Shown: in pieces, positions 3,231 to 62,185 of the stretch
How positions within the stretch are numbered: the first letter of the stretch is position 1
Layout: each line of letters begins with the position of its first letter
From: Macrolepiota albuminosa
Taxonomy: Eukaryota; Basidiomycota; Agaricomycetes; Agaricales; Agaricaceae
Reading direction: 5' to 3'
Assembly (NCBI GenBank): GCA_027475525.1
Contig: JAMWFC010000117.1
Coordinates: forward strand, 4,636,183-4,700,182
DNA length: 64,000 bases
The notes under the pieces: model-generated
The model's input: the letters and a program-made list of their open reading frames with translations, nothing else
The model's database searches: none
Told to the model about the DNA's origin: nothing
Translations under genes and position numbers: made by a program

Positions 3231-3384
3231 AAGAAAATGATGTTTACATTATTAATATTGTGTTCCTTTGTAAACACTTGTTGTATTTCTTTCAAGTGTT
3301 TTCAAGAAAGAAAATGATGTTTACATTATTAATATTGTGTTCCTTTGTAAACACTTGTTGTATTTCTTTCAAGTGTTTTCAAGA
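3231..3384. repeat. 77-bp tandem duplication (assembly scar)
   Basis: Units 3231-3307 and 3308-3384 are identical and exactly 77 bp long; identity stops at both outer edges. It belongs to the window-wide set of 77-bp duplications and is interpreted as an untrimmed k-mer overlap. Confidence 0.9.
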
Positions 3385-4067
3385 GAAAATTCTTTGTTTC
3401 TATGACCAAAAACATATTAGAAACACCTATCACATTGATGAGCATGTTGTGCATCATACAATGTGACACACTCATTAAAATTTACATTTAAATCAAAAAA
3501 AAAGTGAGTAAATTAATATAATGGAATATATGAAATGAAATTGTATATATGTAATGTAAAAAAAAATAAGGCATTCAGTCAGAAAACAATAAACAGCAAA
3601 TAAAAAAATACAATTGCTAGCAGAAAAATGATAATAAAGAGAATTACAATATAAAAAAATGATGATAGACAGAATGACAATGCATCCAGAGCAAAAAGCT
3701 AAGGTTATAGATATAGCTATGAACAAGATGATAATTTTTGAGACTTCAGAGACCTAGTCGAGTAACACAGCATAAGCTCTTGAAAGATCAAACTGAGGAA
3801 ATGTGAGTAAATTTTCAGAAAACCTCAAATGTTCTTTAAAATACCCTCAAAACCTCTCAGTTGGGATATTTACTGGGATTGCCCTATTTTACCATCAATA
3901 CCCTCAAGTTCTCCTGCATAGAATACCCTTAAATTATACTGTACAGATAATTTGACCCGCAAATAAATCTATACTGCTACTTTTTGCACGTCCCAGATGT
4001 CAACGAATAAGAGAGGAAACAAAATGTATAGAGCACATAAAGCTAGCATACCAACACTGCTACGAGC
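3385..4067. other. AT-rich sequence, no supported gene
   Basis: Short A/T-rich repeats only. No coding frame with recognisable content. Confidence 0.4.
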
Positions 4068-5838
4068 ATGAGTACCCCCTATAGCTATCCAACATTCAAT
4101 TTTCCTACTAGTTCCTCAACTCTTGGCTGTGAAAATATCTCGCAATTGATGCCTGTCCAACCCACAATATCAATGCCAGTTATTGATCCGGTTCTACTTT
4201 TGCCTATTGATGTTCCTCCGTTGCATGAGAAGGTGTTGAGAAGTGCAGTAGTAAGTCAAGTAACAACATTGAAGATGAGAGTTGCAGTGCTGGAAAAAGA
4301 TATCAAAACATTGAGGGCCAAAAATAAATACTTGAAGGAGTGCAACAAAAAGACTATCACCGAGGAAAAGAGCACAAACAAGAAGATATTTCAGGAGCTT
4401 GATGGGCTGAAAAAAGAGAAGATGGAAGTTACATACTCGATGGAGAAGGAAAATAGTGGTATTGAGTTTGAGAATGAACTTGAAGACAATGGTTATAATC
4501 AAGAAGGCAGACTTGTGATGGAGTTGAGTATGGCACATGCCAACAGCAATATCTTCAAGGTGAGTATATGTATTCATTTGAAAAATAAATAGCTTACCTA
4601 TCATCAATGCATTGTATTCAGGCACTTATTTGAGCTCAGTTCATTGAGGCAATGGGTTGTCTAGGCAAACTCACAGCAGATGTCTTGCCACTTTATCCTA
4701 AATTAAATGATGAATGGCCAGTGAGACCTGGAACAGAAGTGAAAGCCATACATTTCCACTGGGACCAGCCACACACTGATTCTGATAGCTGGGCTAATCT
4801 TATGCTGATTAGCCATGAAGTGCTTGAAAATGGAAAACAGACCATACCCTCCACTACTGCTGCCATTGAACATATCAGTAAAGATGATTGTGAAGCTTAC
4901 ATAATTCAGAAATTCAAAGACCTTGCAAAAGAGTTCAAATGAGCCCAATGCAAGAAGACGATCTCATCAAATATTGACATGGTCCAAGTTATGGAGATAG
5001 CTGATAATAATGGTCAGAAAGGTGTACAGAATAGCATGGAAATTACTGAAACAGCTAGATCTAGTTGTCACTCATGACAGCAAGGAGTAAGTCAATTTTC
5101 AACATTCATAAACTATTGATCCCTGTCAAAAATTAGAAATTGAAAGTGCGTATCAAGAAACGTGACAAACTTCCACATGATAGCAAATGGCAGGACCCAA
5201 AGTATAATGCCGCTATGACTTCAACTCTAATGTCAGACAATGAAGACTGTTACGATGACAATGGAAAGCTTGTTCCAGGTTGATATATCTCACATCCTCT
5301 TGTTTACCAAACTGATATTGTGAGTTAATTTCCCCTAAGCATTGCATATAAGTTACTCACTAGCATTCAGCTGAATGAATTCTACCAAGCACTCAATGCT
5401 GTATCTGACCCTGACCAGTCAATCAAATATACACTGAGGGTCCAAGGAGAAGCTAAAGACTACAAACCGCCACATGCAAACTCAATCAAAAACAAAGCCC
5501 AACAATAGATAGTTTATCAGGAATGGTTAGACTCAAATCCAGCTAACAAAGCTTGTGATAAACTTCTTGCTGACAACAGCAGACTTTGGGGTGATGCAAT
5601 CAATCCAGCGGAACTTGAAGAAAAGCAAAAAAGAGCATGAGAAGAAAAGAGCAAAGTTTGGCGTAAGAAATTAAAAGTTGAAGAAGTTGAGGCAAAGAGG
5701 GTCAAGGTCAAAGAGAAAAAGAAGAAGGGAAAAGGAAAAGCAAAGATGCAGGATCTGGAGGTAGAGAAGGACTCCAATGAATTTACAGAGATGATAGATG
5801 AAGAAGGCTATCTGGCTATTTCAGCTTGTGCTTGTTAG
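4068..5838 (+). pseudogene. Degraded multi-exon gene, coiled coil plus conserved HFHWDQPHT segment; function unknown
   Basis: Exon 1 (4068-4559) starts at ATG with a Pro-rich head, then a charged, coiled-coil-like stretch (about residues 70-125). A 62-nt intron (4560-4621) leads to exon 2, which holds a conserved-looking core with HFHWDQPHTDSDSWANLM and IEHISKDD. Later exons continue from about 5133 and from about 5373 after a second intron; the tail is Lys-rich. The reading is broken by TGA near 4631 (ALI-stop-AQF, an expected Arg codon), a frameshift near 4942, TAG near 5507 and TGA near 5637. I recall similar proteins as multicopy genes in repeat-rich Agaricomycete genomes but know no function. 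Exon order and splice sites are seen; the family resemblance is from memory. Confidence 0.55.
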
Positions 5839-6389
5839 TTTATGTCAAAATCGTAATCTTCACGTTCAGCACTCATCTATAAATTGAAATGTAGTAAAGT
5901 CAGAGATGAGAACTATAGCACATACATGATCAAATGAAATTGATACCCAGAGATCCTGTTTGATGACCTGAAAATAAATAGGAATCAATGCAAGGGGTGC
6001 CTCAATTTGGGAGACTGGAATGACTTTGAATGGCAAGAATTCATCAGCAAATGTCACCTGAATTCCAAGGGTTGATGCGCTAAGAAGATAATTATTTGCT
6101 AATATGGGATAGTATTCAAAATTTGACTTAATACATATCTCAAGGAAATGGAGGAATGTTTGCCCCACCTTGCAAGTGCCTAATCAATCCACATACATGT
6201 GGTTCCTGGTTTGAGTTTGGAACTTGAATCACAAAGAGATTTTGAATCTCGATGGCTACTCATGGATCATCTTCATTTGGAGTTGACATAAAAGCCAGGC
6301 TGTCTGCTTGAGTATGTTTATTATAAGTACATCCATATTGGATTCCATCCTTTCCAATATAAGGGATCAATCTGGCATAGGTGTTGGAA
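5839..6389. other. Unassigned; possible degraded 5' part of Copia-1
   Basis: Frames here are full of stops. The sequence runs straight into recognisable Copia coding sequence at about 6415, so the gag/protease part of Copia-1 may lie here beyond recognition. Confidence 0.35.
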
Positions 6390-15855: not shown

Positions 15856-16009
15856 GGCGCGACATGGTAGCGCAGAAGGGAGAAATACCGGCAACGTTTG
15901 TATAATATTCAATGTTTGAATCGTATATAACAGGCGCGACATGGTAGCGCAGAAGGGAGAAATACCGGCAACGTTTGTATAATATTCAATGTTCGAATCG
16001 TATATAACA
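15856..16009. repeat. 77-bp tandem duplication (assembly scar)
   Basis: Units 15856-15932 and 15933-16009 differ at one base, TpG versus CpG (gtttgaatc / gttcgaatc). Period exactly 77. Confidence 0.85.
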
Positions 16010-16028
16010 GTATCCGTAATCATAACAT

Positions 16029-17657: not shown

Positions 17658-17811
17658 TCCATCAGAAAGCCTGCTTGCCTATTTAAGGCGCTTGCACGTG
17701 TGATAAGTAAACAGGCCGTCCAACCGAACGCTTATCCATCAGAAAGCCTGCTTGCCTATTTAAGGCGCTTGCACGTGTGATAAGTAAACAGGCCGTCCAA
17801 CCGAACGCTTA
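17658..17811. repeat. 77-bp tandem duplication (assembly scar)
   Basis: Units 17658-17734 and 17735-17811 are identical, and identity ends at both outer edges. Confidence 0.9.
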
Positions 17812-18057: not shown

Positions 18058-18211
18058 ACATTGCGCTGATACTACAATAAAACATATGAATTATCTGTGA
18101 AACTTATAAGGACCAGTAAGCGTTAAAATTAAACACATTGCGCTGATACTACAATAAAACATATGAATTATCTGTGAAACTTATAAGGACCAGTAAGCGT
18201 TAAAATTAAAC
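18058..18211. repeat. 77-bp tandem duplication (assembly scar)
   Basis: Units 18058-18134 and 18135-18211 are identical. Confidence 0.9.
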
Positions 18212-18280: not shown

Positions 18281-18434
18281 ACTAATAAAATTAGACGATG
18301 AAATACCGGACGACTGAATACTCACGATTTCTCTCGAAGAGGCGTTGAAAACGTGATACTAATAAAATTAGACGATGAAATACCGGACGACTGAATACTC
18401 ATGATTTCTCTCGAAGAGGCGTTGAAAACGTGAT
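18281..18434. repeat. 77-bp tandem duplication (assembly scar)
   Basis: Units 18281-18357 and 18358-18434 differ at one base, CpG versus TpG (ctcacgat / ctcatgat). Confidence 0.88.
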
Positions 18435-26810: not shown

Positions 26811-26900
26811 ACACGAGCTACGATTCGTGCCTTCGGCACGAATTTTGCAGCTCGTTGGGGGCTTCACCCCCAAACCCCCCCCCCAACTAAGCCTCCACCC
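26811..26900 (+). repeat. Hairpin repeat downstream of K1
   Basis: Nested palindromes: ACGAGCT/AGCTCGT (26813-26819, 26849-26855) enclose ATTCGTGCC/GGCACGAAT (26823-26831, 26835-26843) around a TTC loop; then GGGGG-cttca-CCCCC (26857-26871) and a C-run. A CpG-decayed relative lies at 62560-62730 in the same orientation relative to kinase K2. It may be the end of a mobile unit or part of an old duplicated block. Confidence 0.7.
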
Positions 26901-26901
26901 T

Positions 26902-27066: not shown

Positions 27067-27199
27067 CCTTTCACAACTCTCAAAGCATTATTGTAGGCTA
27101 TGTTGAATTGAATTTTTCAGTTTTTTTAAGCATTTATCAATCTTTAAAAAATACTAAAAAGTAGTGTATCAGTAGCCTCTGAATTTCTCCTGATTTTTG

Positions 27200-28053: not shown

Positions 28054-28069
28054 GCAGGTCTCTCCCTTC

Positions 28070-38770: not shown

Positions 38771-39466
38771 CTCAAAATGAAGCGATAGAGACCATCAGGG
38801 GTCAACGTCCAATGTTTGCGGTAAGATTGGCATAAGAAAGTGTCTGCTTCGTTTACTGAAAGTCCACAGATGATACCGTTTTGATCTTTTTGTAGCGGTA
38901 AGATTGGCATAAGAAAGTGTCTGCTTCGTTTACTGAAAGTCCACAGATGATACCGTTTTGATCTTTTTGTACATAGTCTTTTGAATTTGTATTTTTGGTA
39001 CGCGATGAAAGAATGTACATACTTCAAGGTTGCGATGTTCGGCTCTGCAGTTAGAGGGCGTTTTGTCGCTCTCCTGAATCATGCTCAACCTTCCAATTGA
39101 AGCATACCCAGATACCAGTCTTTCTCCAGACTACGTTGGTGTCAGTCCAGCTTCAGTCAACTCTCAGGTGCGGACCTAGTTCTAGGTGTTGAAATGGCTT
39201 CGACAGAAGAGGTGGCATGCTTTGGCCAAGGTCAAAATGAAGCGATAGAGACCATCAGGGGTCAACGTCCAATGTTTGCGGTAAGATTGGCATAAGAAAG
39301 TGTCTGCTTCGTTTACTGAAAGTCCACAGATGATACCGTTTTGATCTTTTTGTACATAATCTTTTGAATTTGTATTTTTGGTACGCGATGGAAGAATGTA
39401 CATACTTCAAGGTTGCAATGTTCAGCCCTGCAGTTAGAGGGCATTTTGTTGCTCTCCTGAATCTCC
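38771..39466. repeat. 230-bp direct repeat pair
   Basis: Copy A 38771-39080 contains a 77-bp scar; copy B 39233-39466 does not. Otherwise they differ at about seven bases, all transitions, four of them CpG to CpA/TpG in copy B. Confidence 0.88.
38818..38971. repeat. 77-bp tandem duplication (assembly scar)
   Basis: Units 38818-38894 and 38895-38971 are identical. The diverged direct repeat at 39233-39466 has the unit only once, an internal control against a natural duplication. Confidence 0.92.
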
Positions 39467-39867
39467 AGCCCCCGCCATGCATCCCAATGTACATTCATCA
39501 TCACTCTCCTTCCAGAAATGAAAGTTTGCAGAGTCAGATGGAGGATGGGTGGAGATTGACTGTCTGGGCACATGAGCCGATTGCACAGTACCTGGAAGAC
39601 AAAGGAACCAAGACTGACACTGATATGACGCGCTCTGTGCACATTGAGACAGAGACAGAGATGGAGCCTTCTTCAGCTTCCTCCACTACCTCTTTGATGG
39701 TATCAGTGTCTCTACTAGACGACTATACGCTTACGCTAAGAACTCAGCCCTCCCCGCCTCCCAGTGGTTTTCCAGACTGTGATATCACACGTTCTAGTTG
39801 TCTTCCCTGCACGTCTGCACATTCTGTTTGCCACCATGGAGGGTGAGAGAGGGCATTTGGTCCTTTC

Positions 39868-39967: not shown

Positions 39968-40770
39968 TGCCGACGGCTCGGTTCTCAAGGACACTGAGGA
40001 AGACGAGTTCAAGCTTCCTAGCCGCAGGAGGGTTACTGAACATACTGCCATCTTCGAATCGCGAGGTTATTTAAGACCTGCGCGTCGTTGGTTAAGTAAC
40101 ATAGACCCGTTCGTTCTATGTGTGCCATCTTCGAATCGCGAGGTTATTTAAGACCTGCGCGTCGTTGGTTAAGTAACATAGACCCGTTCGTTCTATGTGA
40201 TCTCGGCGAAGCACGTACCGGGAGCGATTCTTATATAGAGCTTATCCAGCCTGCTCCTTTTCGAGCACCAGAGGTCTTTCTTTGTGTCCCATGGGGGACA
40301 CCTGTGGATATTTGGAACTTGGGCTGCATGGTTTGTTACACCAGAGTTATCCATAATTACGGTCTAATTTGTTGGCACAGGTTTGGAGCCTGATGTTCGG
40401 AAACTTCCTCTTCTCGCGAAGAAGCAGTTCAGGCGAGAAGACTGACAAGGAGACTGGTGACAAGAACCAGCTTGCTCGTATGGTTGCGTTCCTCGGACCC
40501 CCTCCTCGAGAACTCCTGGACCAGTCGGGCTCACGTGCGCACGAGTTTTTTCATGAGGATGGGACGCCCAAAGGGGAAATTACAAATGAGACTCTTGAGT
40601 CGTTCCTTGCGTTGTCTATGAATAAGAAAGGACGAGAAATGACTCCCGAAGATGCAGAAATGTTCCTTGCCTTTGTTAGAAAGACATTAACGTGGACGCA
40701 AGAGACGCGAGCCTCTGCGTCGGACCTGCTTTCTGATCCTTGGATTTCGAAGACAGGGGTTAACTCTTAG
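39968..40770 (+). pseudogene. Kinase K1 fragment, second copy (exons 3-4 only)
   Basis: Starts in the middle of exon 3 (ADGSVLKD) directly after the N gap, so the glycine loop, ATP Lys and catalytic Asp loop are absent. Otherwise equal to 25438-26240, with the same scar. Probably an assembly duplicate, not a real truncated gene. Confidence 0.85.
40046..40199. repeat. 77-bp scar, second copy of 25516
   Basis: Same unit as 25516-25669. Confidence 0.92.
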
Positions 40771-41340
40771 TAATGTTTGTGTAACGTTTGCGTCTAAGAC
40801 GGTGTGGCAGTGGGATGAACTAACTGATGGATCTGGAACGAAGTCGAAAGAGCGAAATGGTAAGTGTAGGCGTAGAAGTCGGGTTAGGTAGGAAAAATAT
40901 GAGGATGCGGTGTAGGCGTGAGATATCGTCCGTCGTGACGCAAAGAAAGTTTGTAAGACCAGTGACAGACGAGCACCAGTAAGAATAAAGAGTCGCTCAG
41001 TAACAGACAGATACCAGTAAGAAAGAGTAGCCGTAGTATTCGTCCCAGGATAAGACGAGACAAGCACCAGTAAGAGAGAGCAGTCGCAATAAGGATCCGA
41101 AATAAGACGAAAAGAACGATATCGATTAAAAAGACGGTCAAGATATCAAGATGCTGGTAAGCCGAAACGGAAGCAGAGATGCCGAGTCAATTGATCAATC
41201 CGACAACAGAGCCGGGACAGACGAGAACAGAGCTGAGACAGAGAAGCAAGATCACCGAGAAGCCGAGAGGATTCAAATACGCTGCTGAAGACAGCGAGCA
41301 CGCGGCGTTTGACGTCGGATCAAACATCGCCCAACTCAGA

Positions 41341-41430
41341 ACACGAGCTACGATTCGTGCCTTCGGCACGAATTTTGCAGCTCGTTGGGGGCTTCACCCC
41401 CAAACCCCCCCCCCAACTAAGCCTCCACCC
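41341..41430 (+). repeat. Hairpin repeat, second copy
   Basis: Equal to 26811-26900. Confidence 0.75.
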
Positions 41431-41431
41431 T

Positions 41432-41596
41432 AACCTCACTTCATTCGGTTAAGGCCTCAGTAATCACAACTCAATGCTTAATCCCAGCCTCAAACTCACT
41501 TTGTTTGGTCAAGGCCTCAGTAATTGCAACTCAATGCTTAATCCCAGCCTCAACCTCACTTTGTTTGGTCAAGGCCTCAGTAATTGCAACTCAGTC
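41432..41596 (+). repeat. 60-bp minisatellite, second copy
   Basis: Equal to 26902-27066. Confidence 0.85.
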
Positions 41597-41729
41597 CCTT
41601 TCACAACTCTCAAAGCATTATTGTAGGCTATGTTGAATTGAATTTTTCAGTTTTTTTAAGCATTTATCAATCTTTAAAAAATACTAAAAAGTAGTGTATC
41701 AGTAGCCTCTGAATTTCTCCTGATTTTTG

Positions 41730-41883
41730 AGTGATTTTCCTGGAATCTGTGAGCATTCTACTAACACCTTCTGAAAAACAGACCAATTGAGCTTTTCTGG
41801 AATGTTAGTGATTTTCCTGGAATCTGTGAGCATTCTACTAACACCTTCTGAAAAACAGACCAATTGAGCTTTTCTGGAATGTT
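41730..41883. repeat. 77-bp scar, second copy of 27200
   Basis: Same unit as 27200-27353. Confidence 0.9.
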
Positions 41884-42429
41884 TCACACTTCCTGAGCAT
41901 TTTATAAATCTCAAAAAACCTTAACTTGGTGTATCATTGGTTCTTGAATTTTTTCTAATTTTTTAGTGATTTTCTTGGAATTTTCTAAGCATTTCTAATA
42001 CTGAAATGAGCCAACTCTTATGTTATTACCCTAAAAGGAAGGTTCTTGGTCAGCCTTGGTCAGCATTAAATTTTCCCAGGCATTGTCCCATATATTATAG
42101 ATTGTCAAACAAGCAGGACTCAGACAAGACGTAACTAATGAAACCGAAGCACATGAAAACAAGCACAGTTCGAGTCCAGGAATTGTGGGGTGTGAAAACC
42201 TTTCTATTTCTCTATTCTTACACCATTTTTTACCTATTGTACAGTCTCAACATCGCCGATCTCTATCTCAAATGCTCCAGATTGTTGATTTCTCCCTGCA
42301 TTTGTTTTCCGACTAACGGTCAGTCTCATAATCCTTGAACTTTATTTTTCTTCTGCCTTATCTGTTCAGTTGATTTCCTAATTTGTATGCCCTGTTGCTG
42401 TCTCTGCCCTTTGTGCATGACTTTTTGCT

Positions 42430-42583
42430 GTCCTTGTGCATCTTTGCAATTCTCTGAATCCTTTACATGTTACCCTTCCAACCTTCCTTGCAGCTCATTT
42501 CTATCAGTCCTTGTGCATCTTTGCAATTCTCTGAATCCTTTACATGTTACCCTTCCAACCTTCCTTGCAGCTCATTTCTATCA
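42430..42583. repeat. 77-bp scar, second copy of 27900
   Basis: Same unit as 27900-28053. Confidence 0.9.
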
Positions 42584-42599
42584 GCAGGTCTCTCCCTTC

Positions 42600-43117
42600 T
42601 GTAAGGGCGACCTCTAGAGGCTGTGGCTCAGTCACACAGCTGGCAGAGGGAGATCCAAAGTGTATTAGAATATATACTGACAATATCAAGGTAGCTACTC
42701 ACCTGGCAGAGGGAGATCCAAAGAGAACAAGTCTGGGGATTCCCTATGCCAGGTTGGACGCTTCTGGGGCCTCTGAAGCATGGGAAACAACTGTACAGTA
42801 CAACAAAACCTTAAAAACTCGAAAATTGACTAACCAAACAAGTGTGCAAACAAGGGAGGAAAACTCCGGACTTTAGAAGTCAGAAAGGCAAACTCTGGCT
42901 TATCTAAGCAGCCTGGAGTGGTGCTGAAGGGCCCACACTTGTCTGAGTGATAGCTAAAGAACCAGAGCACCTCAAAGGTTGAGAATAGTACTAACAGATA
43001 GTGTTGAAAAAGTAGTAACAGCAAGATGAGAGAATGATAGAAGAAATAAGGAAGTGAATGAAAGGAGAGTGAAGAAATAAAGAGTGAAAGAAGAAAGGAA
43101 TGAGGAGTCCCCTGACA
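42600..43117 (-). repeat. Solo LTR (518-bp family), second copy
   Basis: Equal to 28070-28587, with the same CCTTC target duplication. Confidence 0.9.
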
Positions 43118-43821
43118 CCTTCTACCACAACGGTAATGTCACAAGTGGGTTGATGGAAAGAGTCTTCACTAGAACAGTTGTAAATCCTAGTATTCAAAGA
43201 ACTGCCATCTACAATACATTTGGGGCCTTATATACTGGTAGATAGATAGTATGTAAGATCCAACTGAATTTGCTATGGCACGCAAAGCTATGATAACGTA
43301 TGTTACATGTACAGTCACAGTTGCCCCCGATGTTGTGACTCGGACTGTGACTACTTCGCTTGTTTATGAGACTACTATGTCCACTGTCCCTCATATAGGA
43401 TCAGTTGTGCATCAGCCGGTTGAGGAAACATCGACCAGCAGCACTGCTAGAAGTGAAGGCTCTGATTCCTCTGAGGCTGCGGAAGTTCATCTCGTACCAG
43501 TTTTATTGTAATTTTCGGAATACAAGATCCAGTATTTGTGTCCCAAGCTTCCGCATTCCAAGATGCTTGACATACCTCTTCCCTCTCCGATTTTATATCA
43601 TTTCAGACTCTGCTTAGAAACAGTGTATATGGAATATGCCTTGCAAGCTGCGCCCTGATGCGCCAGACAAACAGGGTGTGAAGCAGCATTTTTTATGGAG
43701 TGATTATAATCTCCCAAATTGTTACGTGAGATCAATGATCTTGCGTGTGTTTGATATCTGAAGAAATCATTTTCTGCGCCTTGTCCTTTGTCCCCCCATC
43801 CCATCTCATTCTCCCTCAATC

Positions 43822-46800
43822 ATGAAAGACGCAGACGACAATGACAAGAAGCTCATTTTATGCCAGTGTACCTTCGCACAGTGTAAGGAAGAGATGATCT
43901 CAGACACTCAATGAGGGCGTTTTGTTAACCTTCACACTTATAAAAAACATCAATCGAACGATAATACTGAGAAGATTCAATCAATGGTATCCGCTAATCA
44001 GGCAGCTCAGGCAGCTCATGACGCTGAATTGTCAAGAGCAATTGATAATCTCCCAATTGGCAACCTCAATTTGCACCCTGCTGTGATACAGCCATCGATT
44101 GCTGCTCCTGTGCTAGACTCTCGTTTTACTAAAATGAAAAAATTGGTCTCTCTACTTCACGAAATCGAGGATGGTCTCAAAACTCTGCATTCAGATATCA
44201 AGGCTGTTGGGAATGCCCCGACCGGAGCCAGCAACATTAAGCTGGCAGGCAATATCAAGGAACTAGGCAACATCAAACAAGCTCTGGCAGAGGAATCAGC
44301 CAAGCTTCTTCCAATGGCAATGTCAAAGATTCCGGCTGTGGTCGAAACTTACGAAACAGTACGGTCGTTGCGGGATACGGTCCACAGCCTTTTCGAAGTC
44401 ACGATGCAGACATGGCAAGATGCCTTGGCGAGACGCATTGCTCAGGAGGATGCTTTAGCTGGGAGTAAGTTCGACACCGGTCAGTACCAGCAGATTCATG
44501 TGTTTCCTGATTATTGATGATTCCTCATAGGGGCACATTTCTTGCCCAGTCTTGTTGGAGTGGCGGCGTTTCTACAGGTGGTGATACTCATGGTTGCTGT
44601 TTGCCACATCACTCTCCACCTTCCTCGTCGAGGCACATACTGGTTATTCCAAATGTGCGAAAAGCTTTTGGACATTGTCATGGAAGCTCTCCCTCATGCG
44701 TTGACCGCTCTGGGTTTGCACTTTTACAAAACGTTCCCTCATGACATTCGTGTTGCGATCAAGACTTTGCGCCTGGAAGGGAAATCTGAGGTATATGCGG
44801 CCTGCCCAGCATGTCACTCGATTTACAGAGCAATCAAGGGCAAGAGTGGCGAAGACGATGGAAAGGATATATATGATGACATTCCGGTGTATCCAGAGCG
44901 TTGTAGTGCCAGGCGTCATGGCAAGAAGTGTAAGGAGCTGCTTGTTCGCCCAAAATCTGTTGGGCAACTGAATCTCACTATATACGTCCCCATACGGCCC
45001 TATGTTGTTTTCGACTTCAAAGATTGGTTTGCAGGTTTACTGTCCCGACATGGTTACAAGAAAAAGATGGACCAAGCTTGGGAGAAGATGCGCGCTTCTG
45101 AAGGTGGGAAAATAACAGATATCTTTCAGGGCTCTGCAATTCGGGAGTTCATGGGGCCCAATGGCAAAACTCACTTTAGTCTCTCTGGCAACATGAATGC
45201 TGGTCGTTATTTATTTTCGATCGGAGTGGATTTCTTCAATCCGCTGGGCAATAAGCAAGCTGGAAAGAAGATCTCTGTTGGAATGATTTCCATTGCATGT
45301 CTTAATCTACCTATAGAAGAATGGCACAAGCCCGAGAATCTCTACGTTCAGCTGATTCCTGGTCCGCACGAGCCTTCTGTGGAGGTGGACGGTATCAACC
45401 CCTACCTGAAACCGATCGTCGACGCCTTTCTTGTGTTTTGGGAAGGTGTTTGGTTTAGCCAGACTGCAGACTATCTCTATGGGCGGTTGATTTTTTGTGC
45501 CATTATCCTTGTTGTCTGCAACCTCCCAATGGTGCGGAAAGTTGGAGGCTTTACTACAATCAACCACAAATTGTTCTGTTCCCGATGCGAATGCTGCAGG
45601 TCTTTTCATTCCTACAATAATTTTGAACACAATGTTTGGGTTTCGTGTATCAATGCCAACTGTAGGCAAAAGGCGGAGAAATACATATCTGCTCTCTCTA
45701 CAGAAGCGGCCAAAAAATTGGTAGAAAAATATGGTATATGATGGACTGAACTTCTCAGGTTGCCCTATTACAAGCCATGGTCCTATCTCGTCATCAAGCC
45801 CCATGCATAACTTGTTTCTCGGTCTCATCAAGGAGCATTTTCAGAGCATTCTTGGTTACAACCCCGAAGGTAAAAAGAGTAGACGGAAAGAAGTTGTTCC
45901 ACATAAAGCATTAATTGTAAAGATACCATTCACTTTTGATAACCCTGAGCTGCAGGCAAAATTGTCTATGAAAGCTGCGCGGTCACTCCTTCGTTGGCTA
46001 TTGGAACATATGGAATTCAGCGACAAGGATACTGTGTTTGAAAATGCGGTGAAAAAATGGGCTAAAATTGCTTTACCGGCCTTGGTTTACGTCGCCAGAG
46101 GTCTTCAATGTGAAATGCAATCTGGCGCGAAGAGACTTACAAGAGAGGAGTACTCATGAGCTATCGTAACTTGGGCACGCGCTGACATTTTTCTTATTGA
46201 ATGCAACTAACATCCTTTCACAGAGAATGAAACAAGTTGAAACCAACACATATATAGAACCTGGAAATGTGTTAACAGACAAAGAGATGCATAGCATCAG
46301 AGATGATATGGATTATATCGTAAAGCCCTCCTGGGTAACTTCAGTTCCTCTTCTGTCAGGATCGAAACTCAAGGCCGATGAATGGCGCACACTCGGTTGC
46401 TTAAATTTGCCGATCTCCTTGGTTCGGAAATGGTCAGATACCGAATGCGCGGAATTGCTGCATCTTACCATGCTACTCATGACCGCAATTACCTTGGCAA
46501 CCTCTCAAGTCACCAGTGAAGCACACTCCATACTATACATAAATTGCATGGTTGAATATCGGCGAGAACTCCAGAGAATATTTCTGTTCTATGAGTGTGT
46601 CCCTAATTGTCAGGAGACTCCTCATTCCTTTCTTCTTTCACTCTTTATTTCTTCACTCTCCTTTCATTCACTTCCTTATTTCTTCTATCATTCTCTCATT
46701 TTGCTGTTACTACTTTTTCAACACTATCTGTTAGTACTATTCTCAACCTTTGAGGTGCTCTGGTTCTTTAGCTATCACTCAGACAAGTGTGGGCCCTTCA

Positions 46801-48021
46801 GCACCACTCCAGGCTGCTTAGATAAGCCGGAGTTTGCCTTTCTGACTTCTAAAGTCCGGAGTTTTCCTCCCTTGTTTGCACACTTGTTTGGTTAGTCAAT
46901 TTTCGAGTTTTTAAGGTTTTGTTGTACTATACAGTTGTTTCCCATGCTTCAGAGGCCCCAGAAGCGTCCAACCTGGCATAGGGAATCCCCAGACTTGTTC
47001 TCTTTGGATCTCCCTCTGCCAGGTGAGTAGCTACCTTGATATTGTCAGTATATATTCTAATACACTTTGGATCTCCCTCTGCCAGCTGTGTGACTGAGCC
47101 ACAGCCTCTAGAGGTCGCCCTTACACTAATCACCACATGGCTTTTCACATTTCAGAGTTCATAAAGCTCTATGGTCCTGTCCATTGGTGGTGGGCCTTCC
47201 TATTTGAATGCACGATCAGTCAGTTGCAACGGCTTTCAACCAATTATAAGAAATGTAAATCCTCTGCCTATTCTAGGTTGAGCTGATTCTGACTTGAGAA
47301 AACTAGATGAATATGAAGAAACGATACTTCGATCCTGGCATAAAGCTGCCAACTTGAGAGGCCTATTTTTCAAGGAAAGTTGTCTGCGGGTTGTTAAGGA
47401 GTGCCTCAAATTCTTTCAAGTTCTAGTTCAACCTCAAGCTCGTGGCATACTTGCAACCGAGCATGATGACGCAGCTACCTTTCAGGATTTGGAAAATGAG
47501 GTCCAGTCTTTCAATGAGGATTTAGGCGTCAAAGGGAAAACTGCTTCCATCTCCCTTGAAAGTATAGATGCAATCAAATGTGCTGACCCGCATGCACTCG
47601 TCCCATCGGATGCAATCACACAATCTCAAGTTTGGCACCATGGTCTATCTTTCACAACTCAGACGAGGCACCATGGCAACAGCTCCATAACATTACATGG
47701 TACACCTGCTCCGTTTACCATTAAACAGATCATCGAGTTTTCCAAAGTGTCTCGAGAGAGTAGGCATTTACAAGGAGTCTGGATTGTCAGGGTACATCAT
47801 CAGCCATCTGATATCCCCCACGACCCGTACCAGGAGTATCCTGAGCTTGGAGCGAGCATCTGGAGCACTTGGACACATTCACAACTCAAAGCGGCGCCAG
47901 TCGCTGAGATTGAAGCCCATTGCGCAAGGTTCGAGTGGGATGAAATCATGGTAGTTGTTTCATTGAAACGTGTACGTGTTAGCAATCTCCGTCGTTTCAA
48001 AGCAGAGGTAATGGTTTATTA
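43822..48021 (+). pseudogene. Tnp2-type transposase pseudogene, second copy
   Basis: Equal to 29292-33491 with the same stops, frameshift and internal LTR. Shared disabling lesions mean that it is not an independent gene copy. Confidence 0.8.
46608..47125 (+). repeat. Solo LTR inside Tnp2, second copy
   Basis: Equal to 32078-32595, CTAAT on both sides. Confidence 0.92.
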
Positions 48022-48673
48022 GTCTTGCAATGCTTGAAAAACTTCAAGAAAAAAATTTTGTTTGTGAAATGTTATATGACAAGGGGAACGCATTGTTTTT
48101 TTTTACACTTTTACTTATTTCCGAATTTTTCAAACACACGATTTGCAGTTACCCTGCTACATTCCCTTCCTCTCCAAAGCACAAAGCGTTAATTTCGATC
48201 AATATTTTCTAGAAGATGCAATACAACATACGCAGATCTTTGATCAGGAAGAATTTGCACACGTCCGGCCATTCCAACGCTGGATGCTTAATTTTGTCCT
48301 CACATATACATGTGCTGGTATGACAGAGTTAGTTGATTGTTGACTTTTTCTCCCATATCCGGGATATACTTTTCTTTCTTGGTTAAAATGAAATGTATGT
48401 ATCCATCATAACCATGTCAATATTGGAGCTAAAATTTTTCCATGTTTTAAGTTTTGTTGAACACTTTTGGGCAGAAATGTGACCTGGTCACCAATCCTTG
48501 GGCACTTGTGACAATGTATTGGCTCCCTTACTCACTGATACACATCTATTCTACATTAGTTGTGTTGCACCATGGCTTATTTTGAGGACTATGATGAGTT
48601 TTCTGCTCCTCTCAAAGGCTCAATGATGAGAAGCGTTAATGGAGGTCGATGGTCAGTCTTTATTACATTAAAA

Positions 48674-48827
48674 CTTATACAGAGGTCTTGTCTGAAAAGT
48701 TCCATCACATAACGTGCTTGTTCTTCATGAGGACAAGTAGTATTATCCATCTTATACAGAGGTCTTGTCTGAAAAGTTCCATCACATAACATGCTTGTTC
48801 TTCATGAGGACAAGTAGTATTATCCAT
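48674..48827. repeat. 77-bp scar, second copy of 34144
   Basis: Same unit as 34144-34297, including the CpG/CpA mismatch. Confidence 0.88.
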
Positions 48828-49492
48828 TGTGTGGGCCCATTGTCGCTCCAGTCAAAGTAGAAATGGACGGTGGAAGAGAAAGATGCCAGAAACACGGTTT
48901 TCTATGTTACGACTAACGAGCACATTCTTTCAGATGCGTTATACTGCTTACGTCCTATCTAGAGAATGCAAAATACTTGTTGACGGCATCCTACTTGTAG
49001 TCGACCTTGTTGAGGGGGTCAGTGAATATCATTTGTACTTGATGGCCTATCTGGATGTTGATGTGTTTGCAGTTAATGGTCGCCACAATGAGTCTATTAT
49101 TTGCTACGCTCTACAAGAGGGAGTAAAAATCACATTAAGGTCACTATCTAGGAGATTAACCATCAGGTTAGTGTTGTGTGCACCATCGACCCAGACCAAG
49201 AAGTGCAGTTGAGCCCTGAAAATAGAAATGTTGCCTTTGCAAGCATAAATGAACTGTTGCTTTACACTTCGTTCCGGGGTTGAGCTTCAGCATCGGTTTT
49301 CACTGTGATATTGGTGTCTAGATATCTGCGTCGAAAGAGAAATGGTTGACATATGATTGCTGCCGGTTAAATTTTAATTCATCATCATTGCCTTTGTGTT
49401 CGCCTGGGTGCCTTGTGGCCGTCATTCAAATTCTCTCAAAAAGAAAAACAGAAAGAAACTAGAATGGGTACCCTCTATTCATCTTGCATCCC

Positions 49493-50465
49493 ATGCCTGC
49501 AGATCGACCCAACAAGTCTTGCGCCCAGGATCTGTGCCTCTCTCTTCCCTGTAGCGCTGCTGCTCGAACTCGGAAAAAGAAGACGTTGATCATCCCTAAG
49601 GGGGAGCTTTTTTTCTCAGACGAAGAATCAGATTTCAAGGATGTCAAAAGTCAGACGGTATAATAATTTCTCTTCTTCAATGCTCTTGACCTCATCATGA
49701 GCTCACAGGCAACCTTGCCAGAGGTTGGAACCAGGAACCATGACTCTCAGTATATCGACTGTTTCTCAGAACAGACACAGCCCGGAAATGCCGTCAAAAT
49801 GGAACGTTCTCGAGCAGCTAAGAAATTCAAGGAGGACAAAAATCAAGTAAGGTTCTTATTATCGGCATCCCTCTTCTTTTTGAGAAACAATCTCAGGAGA
49901 TTTCTCGGCTAAATTCTCTGTTGAATTGTGCAAAGGAAGAAGTTTTGGTGCTCCAGAAGCAAAGAGATGAAGCTTTGCTCATTTGTGTCTTCTTATAAAC
50001 AAGATTTCATTGTAACTGTTGATCCGCCAGAATTGCGACACTCTCAGAGCCCAATTTCTGAATGAGCAAAATCGACTCGTGGTGACCACAGATGAACTTA
50101 CAGCTGTCACAGCTGAGAGGGATCGTCTGGCACCAGTATGATGTTGTATTTGATCCCTCACATTCCGCATTGAATAACAATCACCGTAGATTGTTTCGAA
50201 ACTACGGGAGATTGCCATCTGTCCTATCTGCTATAAGCCGATCACAGGTCTATTACTGCAAGTCAAAACCATTATCTATTTTGTCATTTTGTTTACTTTA
50301 CCATGCAGTCTTTACTGCGGTCACACACTCTGTTCAGAATGTGGTCTCAAGTGGTGGGGTGAAAAGTTCTTCCAATCATGCCCAGTGTGTCGAGCCAGTT
50401 CGCCCCTTCCTGATCCTCTTCATATAAGAAATTTGGAAGAGGTATTTGCAATGGTGGAAACTTGA
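49493..50465 (+). CDS. RING-finger protein, second copy
   Basis: Equal to 34963-35935, including the one-base phase problem at the last exon junction. See that entry for domains. Confidence 0.7.
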
Positions 50466-51411
50466 TCTTGTATTATAGACGCATTAGAAAACCGAAAGCC
50501 ATTAGAATATGATAATTCTTCTAGACTCTGAACATACAGAAATAAATTGTCTTTTTATCTTTTTCCTTTTGTATAGGTAGAGAGTAATGGATATCTATGT
50601 CGCTGAATTTAATGGCATGAGAATGAGAATGAATATTTTATTCCCAACTACGTTACATAAGAGATAAAGGCAATCAAGAGAAGTTGCTTAGTAATGTGGA
50701 TGGGAGGAATCCCATGGGCATTATATAAATCCAGTGTGTTTGACTCCTTGCGACCACACCACCACATGAGCTACCTCGAGTTCTGGGTTCACCCAAGCTC
50801 GTTCCTTTTCCTTGAGTTCTGGGTTCACCCAAACTCACTTTTTTCCCTCAAGGTTTGGGTTCACCAAGCTCACCTGTTTTCTCCCCGAGCTCTCTGGTTC
50901 TCTACTTATCTTTCTCTCTGCTACTCTGCTTTTCTCACAGACTTCTCGCCGAAAATTTTTTCTGTCCATTAGCCCAATATTTGGCAAAGCAACTTTTGGT
51001 CGTAGTATACAGCAGCCTCGTCGCCACGTGGGAGCAAGTCCTGTCGCTCTTGTACAAGTTCATTCACATGATAAATCCAACTTTAACAGCTTGGACACCA
51101 CTTCCAGGGCACTGTCAATAAAGCCGCCAACTCTTTAATTGCCGATTGATCCAGCCAGTTCTTTCATTTGGGAAAGCCTGTGCATGAGACATTGATTTTC
51201 ACATTGTCAATCACTTAGCAGAACAGGCAATGTTCCAAAGGGGGTGAGCGTGGTTGGAAGGCAATGAGCGTGCTGTTCGCAAGTTTGTAGTCGAAAGACA
51301 ATCATATGACACCCTCAAACAAAGAATCGGAGTTCAGAATCTTGAGACGATTCATCCTTTGAGCTCGCTTCATCTTGCTCCAAATCATCGTCAATGCACA
51401 GAACGCACACT

Positions 51412-52664
51412 ATGAGCGACTTGCAGCTTCCCTCTTCTATCAACACTGTATGCCCTTTCATTCTAACGTCTTGATGCATGCTCTAACATTCCATCTCTTC
51501 TAGGTCACTGCCCTGCATAGTTCCGATTTTGCTCAGCCTGCCCATGGAGACAACATCAGAGGTGGTGCTCCCGATGATAACCAACATGACAAAGACAACG
51601 ACAACTACCTGTTGAATACGGTCAGGAGACTTGAAGAAGAAGTGGAAGAGCTACGGGACCAGATGAATGGACTCTGTACTCCCGCTTGGAGGAAGGTACT
51701 AGTTTCCAGGACATCCCCCTTCAAGGTCCCTCAGACACATGTCAATCGCACTAACTATCACAATACCCATATGCACATCGTTAGAGAGGAGATGAAATTT
51801 GTTTTAGGTACCAAGAAAGATGTCGACTTCTTCAAGGTTGTCAATGAGCGGCCAGAGCTTCTCACATCTGTTGTCGACATAGCGAATTTTGCCATGGATG
51901 ACACTGCTCCAGGACCAAACATCAACAAACCCCAAATCTGGATCCATTCCCCTCAGAATATATGGAATTTCGAACTTGCTGACCAGTTTGCAGCACGTGT
52001 CATAGAAAAGTATCCCCATAGGAATCTGGATCCTACATGGGTCACTCAACACTTTATTGCCCATCTGGACACCCTGAGAAAGGCCTACAATAAACGGCGA
52101 CCTCGAGAGAATGAGGATGCGGACAGTGCTGAAGTTTGGTTCAGCAAAGAATTTCAGAGAAGCTGCAAGGTTAAGCGTAGGAGGAGGAGACAGACAGAGG
52201 TATGTATCTCACATGAGTACAGATTCAAGTTGCTGATCATCTGGCAGCTGTATCACTCTCAGAAAGCCATTTGCAAAGAAATGATAGATGTTTTGGGCTG
52301 GGACATCTTGTTCCATATGATGGAGCTGCTCGGTGTGGATGGTCAAAGCTCAGACGAGTCTGATGGTGAGCCCTACGAGTACAGGGCAAAAATACAAACG
52401 TGGCGCAGTTCTCGTGTCACAAGCCTCCTCCGCTTCATCGATAGCCACAGGACTACAACAAACTCATATGGAAACCCGCGCGCTGGCACCAGACCACGAG
52501 TCCGACGTATCAGCAACAATGATCATACATCGCGGTCGTTGAGCGACATTGTGGCTTGCCTTCCTCTCAACTTCTACAGTGATACCTGGTTTCAAAGCCT
52601 TGCCGCACAATTGCAAGTCACCCTCAACCCTCAACCTGAGATTCAGCTGCCTCATATTCGGTGA
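51412..52664 (+). CDS. Agaricomycete-type protein of unknown function, second copy
   Basis: Equal to 36882-38134; exons 51412-51447, 51504-52199, 52248-52664. Confidence 0.75.
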
Positions 52665-53347
52665 AATGGTTCGGCATAGTCTATTTGTACGCTTGTAATT
52701 CAACTTGACTATCTATCATATTGCAAAGTTTCAGTTTGTAGCCTCGTAGTGTGTGGCGGTGCTGTGTGGCGGTGCTGGCGCTCGACAAGTCGACTCGTGC
52801 ACAGCCACGATCACGATCGCGTATGCACGTGTCTTGCAAAGTCGTCACCTCAACTTCAGCATACTCTATTGTAGGCTGGTAATTCAACTTGACCGTCTCC
52901 CATATTGCAAAGTTTCGGCTGCAGCCTCGTAGTCCTGTATGTGATGTTACTGTGATCTCTTTTCTTTGTTTCTTTGTGCTAAAAACAACAACACTCAAGT
53001 GAACTCGACATGTCTTCCTTTTCTAAAGAATCAATCTTCAGCCTCAATTACTGCATCTCTAGGCCTCCAATAAAGCCTCAAAAAGTAAGATGTATCCACA
53101 CAGCTCCATCATTATATCTGGTGAGTCAACTAACATGCATACTAATTATAATTACTCCACTAAACCAATACATACAGACTACGGAAAACATTCAAAAAGT
53201 CGATTTCATTTCTTCAAACGTAAGTACTGGTGTCTCTCTTAGTGCATAAAACTAGACATTTCATTTATAGGTATCAGCCATGCAAGTACCAAAGACTTTA
53301 CTCAAAATGAAGCGATAGAGACCATCAGGGGTCAACGTCCAATGTTT

Positions 53348-53501
53348 GCGGTAAGATTGGCATAAGAAAGTGTCTGCTTCGTTTACTGAAAGTCCACAGA
53401 TGATACCGTTTTGATCTTTTTGTAGCGGTAAGATTGGCATAAGAAAGTGTCTGCTTCGTTTACTGAAAGTCCACAGATGATACCGTTTTGATCTTTTTGT
53501 A
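53348..53501. repeat. 77-bp scar, second copy of 38818
   Basis: Same unit as 38818-38971. Confidence 0.92.
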
Positions 53502-54320
53502 CATAGTCTTTTGAATTTGTATTTTTGGTACGCGATGAAAGAATGTACATACTTCAAGGTTGCGATGTTCGGCTCTGCAGTTAGAGGGCGTTTTGTCGCT
53601 CTCCTGAATCATGCTCAACCTTCCAATTGAAGCATACCCAGATACCAGTCTTTCTCCAGACTACGTTGGTGTCAGTCCAGCTTCAGTCAACTCTCAGGTG
53701 CGGACCTAGTTCTAGGTGTTGAAATGGCTTCGACAGAAGAGGTGGCATGCTTTGGCCAAGGTCAAAATGAAGCGATAGAGACCATCAGGGGTCAACGTCC
53801 AATGTTTGCGGTAAGATTGGCATAAGAAAGTGTCTGCTTCGTTTACTGAAAGTCCACAGATGATACCGTTTTGATCTTTTTGTACATAATCTTTTGAATT
53901 TGTATTTTTGGTACGCGATGGAAGAATGTACATACTTCAAGGTTGCAATGTTCAGCCCTGCAGTTAGAGGGCATTTTGTTGCTCTCCTGAATCTCCAGCC
54001 CCCGCCATGCATCCCAATGTACATTCATCATCACTCTCCTTCCAGAAATGAAAGTTTGCAGAGTCAGATGGAGGATGGGTGGAGATTGACTGTCTGGGCA
54101 CATGAGCCGATTGCACAGTACCTGGAAGACAAAGGAACCAAGACTGACACTGATATGACGCGCTCTGTGCACATTGAGACAGAGACAGAGATGGAGCCTT
54201 CTTCAGCTTCCTCCACTACCTCTTTGATGGTATCAGTGTCTCTACTAGACGACTATACGCTTACGCTAAGAACTCAGCCCTCCCCGCCTCCCAGTGGTTT
54301 TCCAGACTGTGATATCACAC

Positions 54321-54474
54321 GTTCTAGTTGTCTTCCCTGCACGTCTGCACATTCTGTTTGCCACCATGGAGGGTGAGAGAGGGCATTTGGTCCTTTCGTT
54401 CTAGTTGTCTTCCCTGCACGTCTGCACATTCTGTTTGCCACCATGGAGGGTGAGAGAGGGCATTTGGTCCTTTC
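54321..54474. repeat. 77-bp tandem duplication at the end of the 14-kb copy (assembly scar)
   Basis: Units 54321-54397 and 54398-54474 are identical. The first 14-kb copy stops exactly at the end of unit 1, so a contig ended here. Confidence 0.93.
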
Positions 54475-55418
54475 TGAGGAGCCCTGGGGCAGCTGAGGAT
54501 TGGATGAGGGAGGGTAAGGGCCGGTCAGAGTCGATCTGCCCCACGAGAACTAAGGATTAATACACACACGTCTTTAATTTCCTGCCTTCACACCACGCAA
54601 CCATCTTACATGCCTACTACCTCTCCCGTTTCGGCCTTGCTCCGCATCTGGAGCTTTACATCTCACTTGGAAAGACCAGAAATGGAGGATGAGCTACCTC
54701 TCCCATTTCGGCCTTGCTCTGCATCTGGAGCTTTACATCTCACTTGGAAAGACCAGAAATGGAGGATGAGCGGGTTAGGATTATGGATAAGTCCTGGGCC
54801 CACTGCGTCGAATACTTGCTTGTGGTTTGTTGCTGTCATTGTGCTGTTCTTTGTGCTGTTCTTACAATCTCCCTTGAAAAGTTAATTGCCTCGAGCACGT
54901 TAGTACTCACCTGAAGGAGTCTATTACCAAACTTTTAACGATGTTTCGCAGCTTAATGATGGCCGCCATGGCATTACCTCAAGGAAAATATGTTGTTAAC
55001 GGGTTTGCTACGTGTATGATCAAGTTATGCAGCGTGTCATCGTCTATTATCATGGCATTGGCCGTCACCCACATTGTGATGCTGGATATCCTCAAAATCT
55101 TATGCCCATCGACCATGCTGAACTTCTTGTCCCCAAGCTTTGTCTTTATTTTTCTTGTTACAGCCATCTTTACGACCTTCACTGTTTACACTAGCTGCAT
55201 TGCCATTCTTTCTGTTGTAATTGCTTCCCATCCCTATGTGATCATTCCCCTCGTCATCATTTTTGCGTTGGCTGTTCTTTCATTTTCAATGAAAGCTTTT
55301 CTTGATTTCACCTGCCGTTTAATTTTTTTTATGTGAGCGCCTTTTTTTGTCATTACTATTGCATTTCTTGTACTGCATAAACCAATATATTGTTGCCTAT
55401 CGCTACATTAGCTGCACG
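54475..55418. other. Unassigned; hydrophobic open frame at 54941-55336
   Basis: The 131-codon plus-strand frame (MFRSLMMAAMALPQG..) has three to four long hydrophobic stretches (for example MLDILKILC, FVFIFLVTAIF, VIIPLVIIFALAVL) that could be membrane helices. A second frame at 55012-55194 (MYDQVMQRVIVYYHGIGRHP) looks at least as coding-like. A donor/acceptor pair ending at ttcgcag (about 54950) would link either to an exon at about 54760-54816. No family recognised. Confidence 0.3.
54617..54770. repeat. 77-bp tandem duplication (assembly scar)
   Basis: Units 54617-54693 and 54694-54770 differ at two bases, both CpG transitions (cccgttt/cccattt and ctccgc/ctctgc). Confidence 0.85.
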
Positions 55419-56050: not shown

Positions 56051-56204
56051 TTGATGTAATTTAATTGGCCATGCCATCCCGGGGTATGGTCGGGGAATCC
56101 TCAACAGACGCCGTGAGCGCTAATTCCTTGATGTAATTTAATTGGCCATGCCATCCCGGGGTATGGTCGGGGAATCCTCAACAGACGCCGTGAGCGCTAA
56201 TTCC
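56051..56204. repeat. 77-bp tandem duplication (assembly scar)
   Basis: Units 56051-56127 and 56128-56204 are identical. Confidence 0.92.
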
Positions 56205-56311: not shown

Positions 56312-56465
56312 ATTGACAGCGCCAATTGCTAACTCCTTCCAGTACTGATCGGGGTTTGGTCAGAGTCACCTCCCGCCGTTATGCTAGCATTGACAGCGCC
56401 AATTGCTAACTCCTTCCAGTACTGATCGGGGTTTGGTCAGAGTCACCTCCCGCCGTTATGCTAGC
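56312..56465. repeat. 77-bp tandem duplication (assembly scar)
   Basis: Units 56312-56388 and 56389-56465 are identical. Confidence 0.92.
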
Positions 56466-59927: not shown

Positions 59928-60081
59928 TGATTGTCACTCATATCAGCACCAGAGTCCTCAGATGTTGTATTATCAGTGGAGATGCCAAGTTTGCAGGTTC
60001 AACTTGATTGTCACTCATATCAGCACCAGAGTCCTCAGATGTTGTATTATCAGTGGAGATGCCAAGTTTGCAGGTTCAACT
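59928..60081. repeat. 77-bp tandem duplication in the helicase (assembly scar)
   Basis: Units 59928-60004 and 60005-60081 are identical; shifts the helicase frame. Confidence 0.92.
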
Positions 60082-60253: not shown

Positions 60254-60407
60254 AACTTTATGTTGCACTTTCTCAATGCACATCAGGAGATCATATCAAG
60301 GTGATTTTGTCAGAAGAAAATACATCAAAAAACTTTATGTTGCACTTTCTCAATGCACATCAGGAGATCATATCAAGGTGATTTTGTCAGAAGAAAATAC
60401 ATCAAAA
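60254..60407. repeat. 77-bp tandem duplication in the helicase (assembly scar)
   Basis: Units 60254-60330 and 60331-60407 are identical; repeats the LYVALSQCTS segment out of frame. Confidence 0.92.
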
Positions 60408-60666: not shown

Positions 60667-60820
60667 ACAGTTTTTTGAGCATCTCTAATTTTTCAGGTTT
60701 ATCTCTATTTTACTCAGAAATAAAGAGTAAGTTGCATGTGGAAACAGTTTTTTGAGCATCTCTAATTTTTCAGGTTTATCTCTATTTTACTCAGAAATAA
60801 AGAGTAAGTTGCATGTGGAA
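60667..60820. repeat. 77-bp tandem duplication in the mariner left repeat (assembly scar)
   Basis: Units 60667-60743 and 60744-60820 are identical. Confidence 0.92.
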
Positions 60821-60834
60821 ATATAAACAAAGTC

Positions 60835-61925
60835 ATGCAACCATGTTTAGATATATTTGGAAGTAGTTCAAGCTGGTTGAACCACATCTTGACCTTTAAC
60901 CACCATCATCAAACCTATTCCTCCTGCGCAATGCTTACTGTTGCTTCTTTTCTTGCTCAAGGGTATTCTTTGGGTCAGACTGAGGGCCAAACTGGTCTAA
61001 AGAAGTTTACTATTGGGAGGACTGGTAGAGAGTTGGAGATGGACAAGGAAAACCATTCTAGAAGCTATCTTACTAAGCTTACTCCACATGATAAATAGGC
61101 TATTGTTTGACAAATCTCAACTAGGAGACTTGATACAGCTGTCCAGGCCACCAATTTTATCAACAACATCATTTCCAACCATGTCTCTCCCTAGACTGTC
61201 TGGAATGTGTTGAAAAAGGAGGTGTATTGGTCTGCTACCAAGAGAAAAGTTCCTATGCTCAAAGCTAGACATTGACAACTATGGCTTAAATGGGCTCAGG
61301 AGCATCAGAACTGGACTATAGAGGACTGGAAAAGGGTGTTGTGGACAGATGAGACAAAAATTAACAGGATTGGGTCAGATGAGAAGCAGTATGTGTGGAA
61401 GCTATGAGGAGAAGGCATTTCAGACTAAACAACTACATTTACTGTGAAGCATGGAGGAGGGAATAATCTCATGGTATGGGGCTGTATGGGTTGGAATGGA
61501 GTAGAAAAGCTTGTGGAGGTGGTGAGGATCATGAATGCAGAGCAGTACTGTGAAATTTTGGATAATAGAGCAAAGAAGAGGTTTGAAAAGTTGGAGATGG
61601 AGGAGGGTACCTGCTATTTTCAACAGGACAATGACTCCAAATACAACTTCAAGAGGGCTGACAAGTGGTTTTAAGACAACAACTTTGATGTTCTTTGGTG
61701 GCTAGCCCAATCCCTTGATCTCAACTCTATTTAACATCTCTGGAAGTACCTCAAGGAGCAACTTAGGCAGTATGAAACACCTCTTCATGGTATGCATAAA
61801 TTATGGGAGAGGGTTGCAAAGAAGTGGGATGAAATACCACCAGAGGTATGCCAAAGACTAATAAAAAGCATGCCTAGAAGGATTCAAGCAGCTATCAAGG
61901 CAAATGGAGGACATACAAAGTACTA
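60835..61925 (+). pseudogene. Tc1-type DD34E transposase, catalytic Glu replaced by stop
   Basis: Decayed DDE transposase. The N-terminal DNA-binding part is poor. Catalytic region: VLWTDETKINRIG (Asp at 61348-61350), GGGNNLMVWGCMGWNG, CYFQQDNDSKYNFKRA (Asp at 61627-61629), SLDLNSI-stop-HLWKYLKEQL. The stop TAA at 61732-61734 falls exactly 34 codons after the second Asp, the place of the DD34E Glu (GAA to TAA). Other stops occur near 61100, 61275 and 61672. It would cut and paste the element at TA sites; it is dead here. Confidence 0.87.
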
Positions 61926-62031
61926 GATACTAAAATTAGAGATGCTCAAAAAACTGTCCCAATGAGTGAATATTTTAAAATGGCTATTGCTCCATCAGTT
62001 TTGATCTCAATTATATAAGGCTAGGTTTATT

Positions 62032-62185
62032 TTGTAGCTATGATGCCATAGTATTTTACATGATTTAATCAGAATTTTAGGTACTTCCCATCCTTCATGC
62101 CAATGTCATTGTAGCTATGATGCCATAGTATTTTACATGATTTAATCAGAATTTTAGGTACTTCCCATCCTTCATGCCAATGTCA
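62032..62185. repeat. 77-bp tandem duplication in the mariner right repeat (assembly scar)
   Basis: Units 62032-62108 and 62109-62185 are identical. Confidence 0.92.

Follow-up and report, generated by a model that had tools for sequence, protein, structure and literature searches.

What kind of process duplicates DNA side by side in units of exactly 77 base pairs (bp), at one place after another? The question is raised by a 64,000-nucleotide stretch of the genome of the agaric Macrolepiota albuminosa (GenBank assembly GCA_027475525.1, contig JAMWFC010000117.1, positions 4,636,183 to 4,700,182 of the forward strand), referred to here as the window, in which a preliminary description had listed 18 sites of this kind and five repeats of them in a second copy of a 14-kb segment. 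All 23 were located, each with two units and a period of 77. The same description ascribed them to contigs of a de Bruijn graph that overlap by 77 bp and had been joined without trimming. This explanation is supported by a spike at 77 in the length spectrum, by single units in paralogues, by the differing places at which copies of one element are doubled, by a contig end that falls on a unit edge and by the points at which repeated sequences diverge. Judged from the sequence, the 77-bp duplications are almost certainly assembly artefacts, left where pieces of a K = 77 de Bruijn graph were joined untrimmed.

One repeat length in the window and beyond

In a scan of the window for adjacent repeats, each of the 18 coordinates given for a first unit is the start of a two-unit repeat of period 77, and the five sites in the second 14.43-kb copy bring the total to 23 (Table 1). 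At each of the 18, the second unit follows the first with nothing in between, which leaves no inserted mobile element. The sites had been described as perfect, and 14 of the 18 are; single mismatches are present at 15856, 18281 and 34144, and two at 54617. Unbroken identity at the perfect sites in the window extends over 77–79 bases, in agreement with the earlier statement that it ends within one or two bases of the unit edges.

The source assembly comprises 100.1 Mb in 129 contigs. Outside the window, 25 stretches of 10 kb each (250 kb from 15 contigs) were sampled at round coordinates, on contigs already met in an earlier search of the assembly, giving 314 kb with the window included. Duplications were counted if they were adjacent, at least 97% identical and of period 30–999. 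By this count, 75 of 78 adjacent duplications have a period of 77, 23 of them in the window and 52 outside it, and the spike that the preliminary description had set as a check is therefore found in the sampled DNA as well. Of the remaining three, two have a period of 60 and represent a single window site in both its copies, and one has a period of 70. The two units are identical at 64 of the 75 sites, differ by one base at 10 and by two at one. The sites recur in samples from the 15 contigs, although their density is uneven and 9 of the 25 samples have none.

The edges of the units behave as if the flanking sequences were unrelated. With a match probability of 0.251 per base per side, the 64 perfect sites of the window and samples (including four from the second 14.43-kb copy) are expected to have unbroken runs of 77, 78, 79, 80, 81, 82 and 83 bases in 35.9, 18.0, 6.8, 2.3, 0.7, 0.2 and 0.1 cases; the observed numbers are 36, 19, 4, 3, 0, 1 and 1. 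Identity past 77 bp is thus what chance predicts, and the run lengths, no search for a motif having been made, give no hint of microhomology at the unit borders. Exact adjacent duplications of the same length at such a density are not due to chance; only the run-on of zero to two bases at their edges is.

Tandem repeats of other lengths are also present. The window scans covered periods 10–2999 and 20–2999, and the latter returned periods of 21, 25, 60, 383 and 460. The period of 383 belongs to an internal direct repeat near site 38818 that appears as 460 (383 + 77) where it is read across the duplication. The 70-bp tandem duplication (L027:1878) is the sole case of period 30–999 other than 77 in the 250 kb of samples.

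Paralogues, contig ends and divergence points

Some of the duplicated sites lie in repeated DNA, where copies elsewhere in the assembly can show what the sequence looks like without a join. The match halves to the left and right of a site were paired within the same genome; if a paralogue carries one unit, the two halves overlap by 77 bases. At five sites (25516, 38818, 59928, 17658 and 18058), 76 of the 78 paralogues that could be paired show this pattern, a count that leaves out copies aligning unbroken across the site (six at 59928, nine at 17658 and eight at 18058). Since the paralogues run straight across these five sites, the order of the sequence there is supported; the joins look right, and only one unit would be false. 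The earlier warning that local order across the duplications is not proven is too strong for these sites, and it is borne out at 54321.

Site 54321 lies at the end of a piece of 14,430 bp that occurs twice in the window without a single difference, the two placements being separated by a gap of 100 Ns. The 77-mer that forms its unit starts at three positions in the window, 39791 (immediately ahead of the gap), 54321 and 54398. The 14,430-bp piece therefore ends with this 77-mer and the next piece begins with it, so that at this one site (39867/54397) the unit edge coincides with a contig end. The stretch is probably a single contig given two placements, not a genuine segmental duplication. Both placements contain the same internal 77-bp duplications, which suggests that the doubling of units preceded the layout with N gaps. 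Across the three N gaps of the window, no exact match of more than 9 bases is shared within 300 bases on either side.

If the units are K-mers at which a graph branches, exact copies of them elsewhere should part from the sequence of the duplicated locus at the unit edge. Eleven duplicated units have an exact copy in another examined locus, and in nine of these a copy diverges exactly at the edge. One reciprocal pair (L014 and L020) is duplicated at the same 77-mer in both loci and was dropped as circular, leaving seven of nine. Among control 77-mers with an exact copy in another locus, away from duplications, 443 of 16,089 (2.8%) diverge at an edge, neighbouring control positions not being independent and units with a run of 78 having been tried in both phases. 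Among units with exact copies in other loci, most of the duplicated ones thus behave as branching K-mers.

Sites 59928 and 60254 lie in a repeated element that encodes a Pif1-type helicase. The frame with the Pif1 2B domain (PF21530) is closed by a stop codon at 60005–60007, the first three bases of unit 2 of site 59928, and beyond unit 2 the window carries its continuation in a different frame. In L047 and L048, two copies with one unit, the frame stays open as far as the retrieved sequence extends. The six copies that align unbroken across 59928 looked at first like carriers of an inherited duplication. When these and six others were compared, nine of the 12 stretches were found to have a 77-bp duplication of their own, full or nearly so (75 of 77), one a broken run of 39, and two none. 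As Table 1 shows, the element copies are mostly doubled at different places.

Table 1. Coordinates of the 77-bp duplications and of other features named in the text. Window coordinates are given first; the last 12 rows refer to the element copies compared, on a scale where the window has its duplication at 129. A point marks features without an assigned strand.
Feature	Coordinates	Strand	Remarks
77-bp doubled overlap, two units	3231..3384	.	perfect; six other repeat copies (L003–L008) align as overlapping halves, single-unit-like
77-bp doubled overlap	15856..16009	.	one T/C mismatch
77-bp doubled overlap	17658..17811	.	perfect; paired paralogues single in 9/9
77-bp doubled overlap	18058..18211	.	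perfect; paired paralogues overlap by 77 in 16/17, by 69 in one
77-bp doubled overlap	18281..18434	.	one C/T mismatch
77-bp doubled overlap	25516..25669	.	perfect; single unit in 6/6 paired paralogues
77-bp doubled overlap	27200..27353	.	perfect
77-bp doubled overlap	27900..28053	.	perfect, run 78
77-bp doubled overlap	34144..34297	.	one G/A mismatch
77-bp doubled overlap	38818..38971	.	perfect; overlap exactly 77 in 19/20 paired paralogues, 74 in one
Site 25516 in second placement	40046..40199	.	
Site 27200 in second placement	41730..41883	.	
Site 27900 in second placement	42430..42583	.	
Site 34144 in second placement	48674..48827	.	one mismatch
Site 38818 in second placement	53348..53501	.	
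77-bp doubled overlap	54321..54474	.	perfect; start at 54320 equally possible; unit 1 (54321–54397) is the final 77 bases of the 14,430-bp piece
77-bp doubled overlap	54617..54770	.	two mismatches
77-bp doubled overlap	56051..56204	.	perfect
77-bp doubled overlap	56312..56465	.	perfect
77-bp doubled overlap in Pif1-type helicase reading frame	59928..60081	.	perfect; 26/26 paired paralogues single
77-bp doubled overlap, same Pif1 element	60254..60407	.	perfect; L038 doubled at the same place
77-bp doubled overlap	60667..60820	.	perfect, run 78
77-bp doubled overlap	62032..62185	.	perfect, run 79
14,430-bp piece, first placement	25438..39867	.	ends at N gap 39868–39967
14,430-bp piece, second placement	39968..54397	.	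begins at N gap, ends at unit 1 edge of site 54321
60-bp tandem repeat	26898..27016; 41428..41546		
Direct repeat of period 383	38760..39084; 53290..53614		
Element copy L038	127		unbroken alignment; also has overlapping runs at 455 and 564
Element copy L039	237	opposite	unbroken alignment
Element copy L040	88		unbroken alignment
Element copy L041	171		unbroken alignment
Element copy L042	92		unbroken alignment; run 75
Element copy L043	11		unbroken alignment
Element copy L044	410		
Element copy L045	80	opposite	
Element copy L046	383		
Element copy L047			no duplication
Element copy L048			no duplication
Element copy L049			broken run of 39

Origin of the duplications

A chain of three steps would account for these observations. 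A short-read de Bruijn graph built with K = 77 would yield pieces that end at branching 77-mers, so that adjacent pieces have 77 bases in common. In a later round of chaining, the pieces would have been put in an order that is plausible at five of the six sites with pairable paralogues, and the shared 77 bases written twice. Still later, the chained pieces would have been laid out with gaps of 100 Ns, the same 14,430-bp piece being placed twice. From the duplications as they stand in the assembly we infer the graph assembler, its K of 77, the program that joined the pieces and the succession of the steps.

In such graphs k is usually odd. Two conventions for the overlap have been described: with most de Bruijn assemblers, adjacent edges overlap by K bp (PMC7379835), and in the other convention graph nodes overlap by k − 1 (PMC9215042). 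The first fits better here because the second would need k = 78, an even number. The outcome can also be reproduced with a toy graph, in which sampled DNA with random point differences added (0.04% of bases) is cut at branching K-mers and joined untrimmed. With K = 77 (362 cuts), the number of exact period-77 duplications rises from 46 to 266, and 46 of period 154 appear; with K = 65 (444 cuts), 439 duplications of period 65 are formed.

Several observations weigh against untrimmed graph joins. The most direct concerns the units themselves, which should be identical if they are graph overlaps, although 11 of the 75 sites carry one or two mismatches. The 10 distinct imperfect sites (15856, 18281, 34144, 54617 and six sampled ones) hold 11 mismatches, of which 10 are transitions and one a transversion, an excess that suggests real variants over random errors. 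Polishing after joining, or a mixing of haplotypes or of reads from the other nucleus, could be the cause. The spacing of the sites is a second difficulty. The toy graph produces 84 pieces of 155 bases (2K + 1, the size of a single-base bubble), unlike the real spacings, none of which is 155 and the smallest of which is 209 in the window and samples. Bubble popping would remove such pieces. The only 155-base candidate, 25438–25592, opens the doubled piece and closes with unit 1 of site 25516, but lacks a 77-bp duplication at its left border.

The comparisons with other loci leave exceptions too. The units tested for divergence come largely from two repeat families and are not independent, and two of the nine non-circular ones are not at a visible divergence point; another window copy of the 38818 unit matches for 46 and 4 bases past the edges. 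The unbroken alignments at 17658 and 18058 stand outside the count of single-unit paralogues, and at 18281 no match halves could be paired in the same genome. At 54321, none of the eight paired paralogues has the simple single-unit pattern: the halves are separated by 74 extra bases in five and by 225–303 in three. Two further copies align straight through. In two paralogues (L036 and L037) a repeat of period 151 occupies the place of the 77-bp duplication, and a genuine tandem array may have been cut short by the window join. This join is doubtful because the paralogues carry extra bases and because this contig end recurs ahead of the N gap. The odds of the artefact are left unchanged by this result, since an artefact of joining does not need every join to be correct.

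One element copy, L038, is doubled two bases from 59928 and, with its run at 455, exactly at 60254. At both places its two units are identical to each other, yet they differ by 4–6 bases from those of the window, and a duplication inherited by both is therefore unlikely. Recurring places, as in L038 and in the L014/L020 pair, are to be expected of homologous branch points, but equally of a process with a preference for certain sites.

Another technical source would be a gap filler, a polisher or a long-read merger that wrote a fixed anchor of 77 bases twice, with no K = 77 graph involved. It would also give one length in every sample that has any site, and mismatched units would arise easily from the joining of two independently called ends, whereas the contig end at a unit edge is neutral. 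However, a fixed anchor gives no reason for units to lie at the divergence points of repeated 77-mers as they do in seven of nine cases against 2.8% of controls, and this source is considered very unlikely.

It is extremely improbable that the duplications are real and arise by some process such as fixed-length repair synthesis or the target-site duplication of a mobile element. The near identity of the units and their single state in most paired paralogues at five sites are what would be expected of a recent event, and a few copies are indeed doubled at the same place. However, no inserted element lies between the units, the run-on at the edges is that of random sequence and so gives no microhomology, and the process would have to stop at a contig end and at the divergence points of repeated 77-mers. 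The variant best adapted to the last point, a living process that duplicates exactly 77 bp at the divergence points of repeated DNA, such as repair or recombination machinery copying a set length where homology ends, is scarcely credible. Ordinary minisatellites or microhomology-mediated tandem duplications, which do occur here (the 60-bp, the 70-bp and the 151-bp repeats), should vary widely in length and are refuted by the 314-kb spectrum, their probability being practically nil.

Consequences and comparison with known systems

Untrimmed joins of this kind are of low biological interest but are a real annotation hazard. From 52 sites in 250 kb, about 20,000 false insertions of 77 bp, roughly 1.6 Mb, are to be expected in the 100-Mb assembly, a rough extrapolation because the samples were placed at round coordinates on previously met contigs and 9 of 25 have no sites. 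Because 3 does not divide 77, every insertion that falls within an exon makes a false frameshift, of which the Pif1 frame broken at 59928 is an example. The gene models of this assembly are affected, as are its pseudogene counts and tandem-repeat statistics. The length-spectrum test is simple enough to screen other assemblies.

Some other features were recorded along the way. Long reading frames are present at 10521–14856, where three frames from 11347 on have no Pfam match at E 0.001; by eye they are reminiscent of a retroelement that encodes a reverse transcriptase together with a recombinase. A protein of the Transposase_21 (tnp2) type is encoded at 30012–31208 and 44542–45738, with a weak Pfam match of 25 bits against a cut-off of 28.6 (first copy scanned) and 51 relatives in a protein search, the best-scoring of which is 49% identical. 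Outside the window, the best protein matches of a sulfite reductase reading frame (contig C107, L033) are to Termitomyces sp. T32_za158 (94% identical) and T. cryptogamus (92%), which places the host in Termitomyces or close to it, among the mushrooms farmed by termites. RNA families and tRNAs gave no match in the window at default thresholds.

Among the matches listed in a literature search, no title or abstract opening describes an artefact of untrimmed 77-base overlaps. The closest known system is a SPAdes-type graph. SPAdes graphs of k-mer size 77 are obtained with the setting '-k 21,33,55,77', according to PMC7379835, and 77 is the last K of that series. A value of K = 77 would fit SPAdes, and the likeness extends to shared ends of exactly K bases at branching K-mers. 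The difference is that the overlap here is written twice in the scaffold rather than merged, and that it differs by one or two bases at some sites. The sites also resemble the false duplications known from other assemblies, in that the sequence would be single in the organism and double in the assembly. The usual false duplications are haplotype copies of kilobases. Here, in contrast, a fixed 77 bases is repeated at many joins, and it is the double placement of the 14,430-bp piece (25438/39968) that resembles the usual kind.

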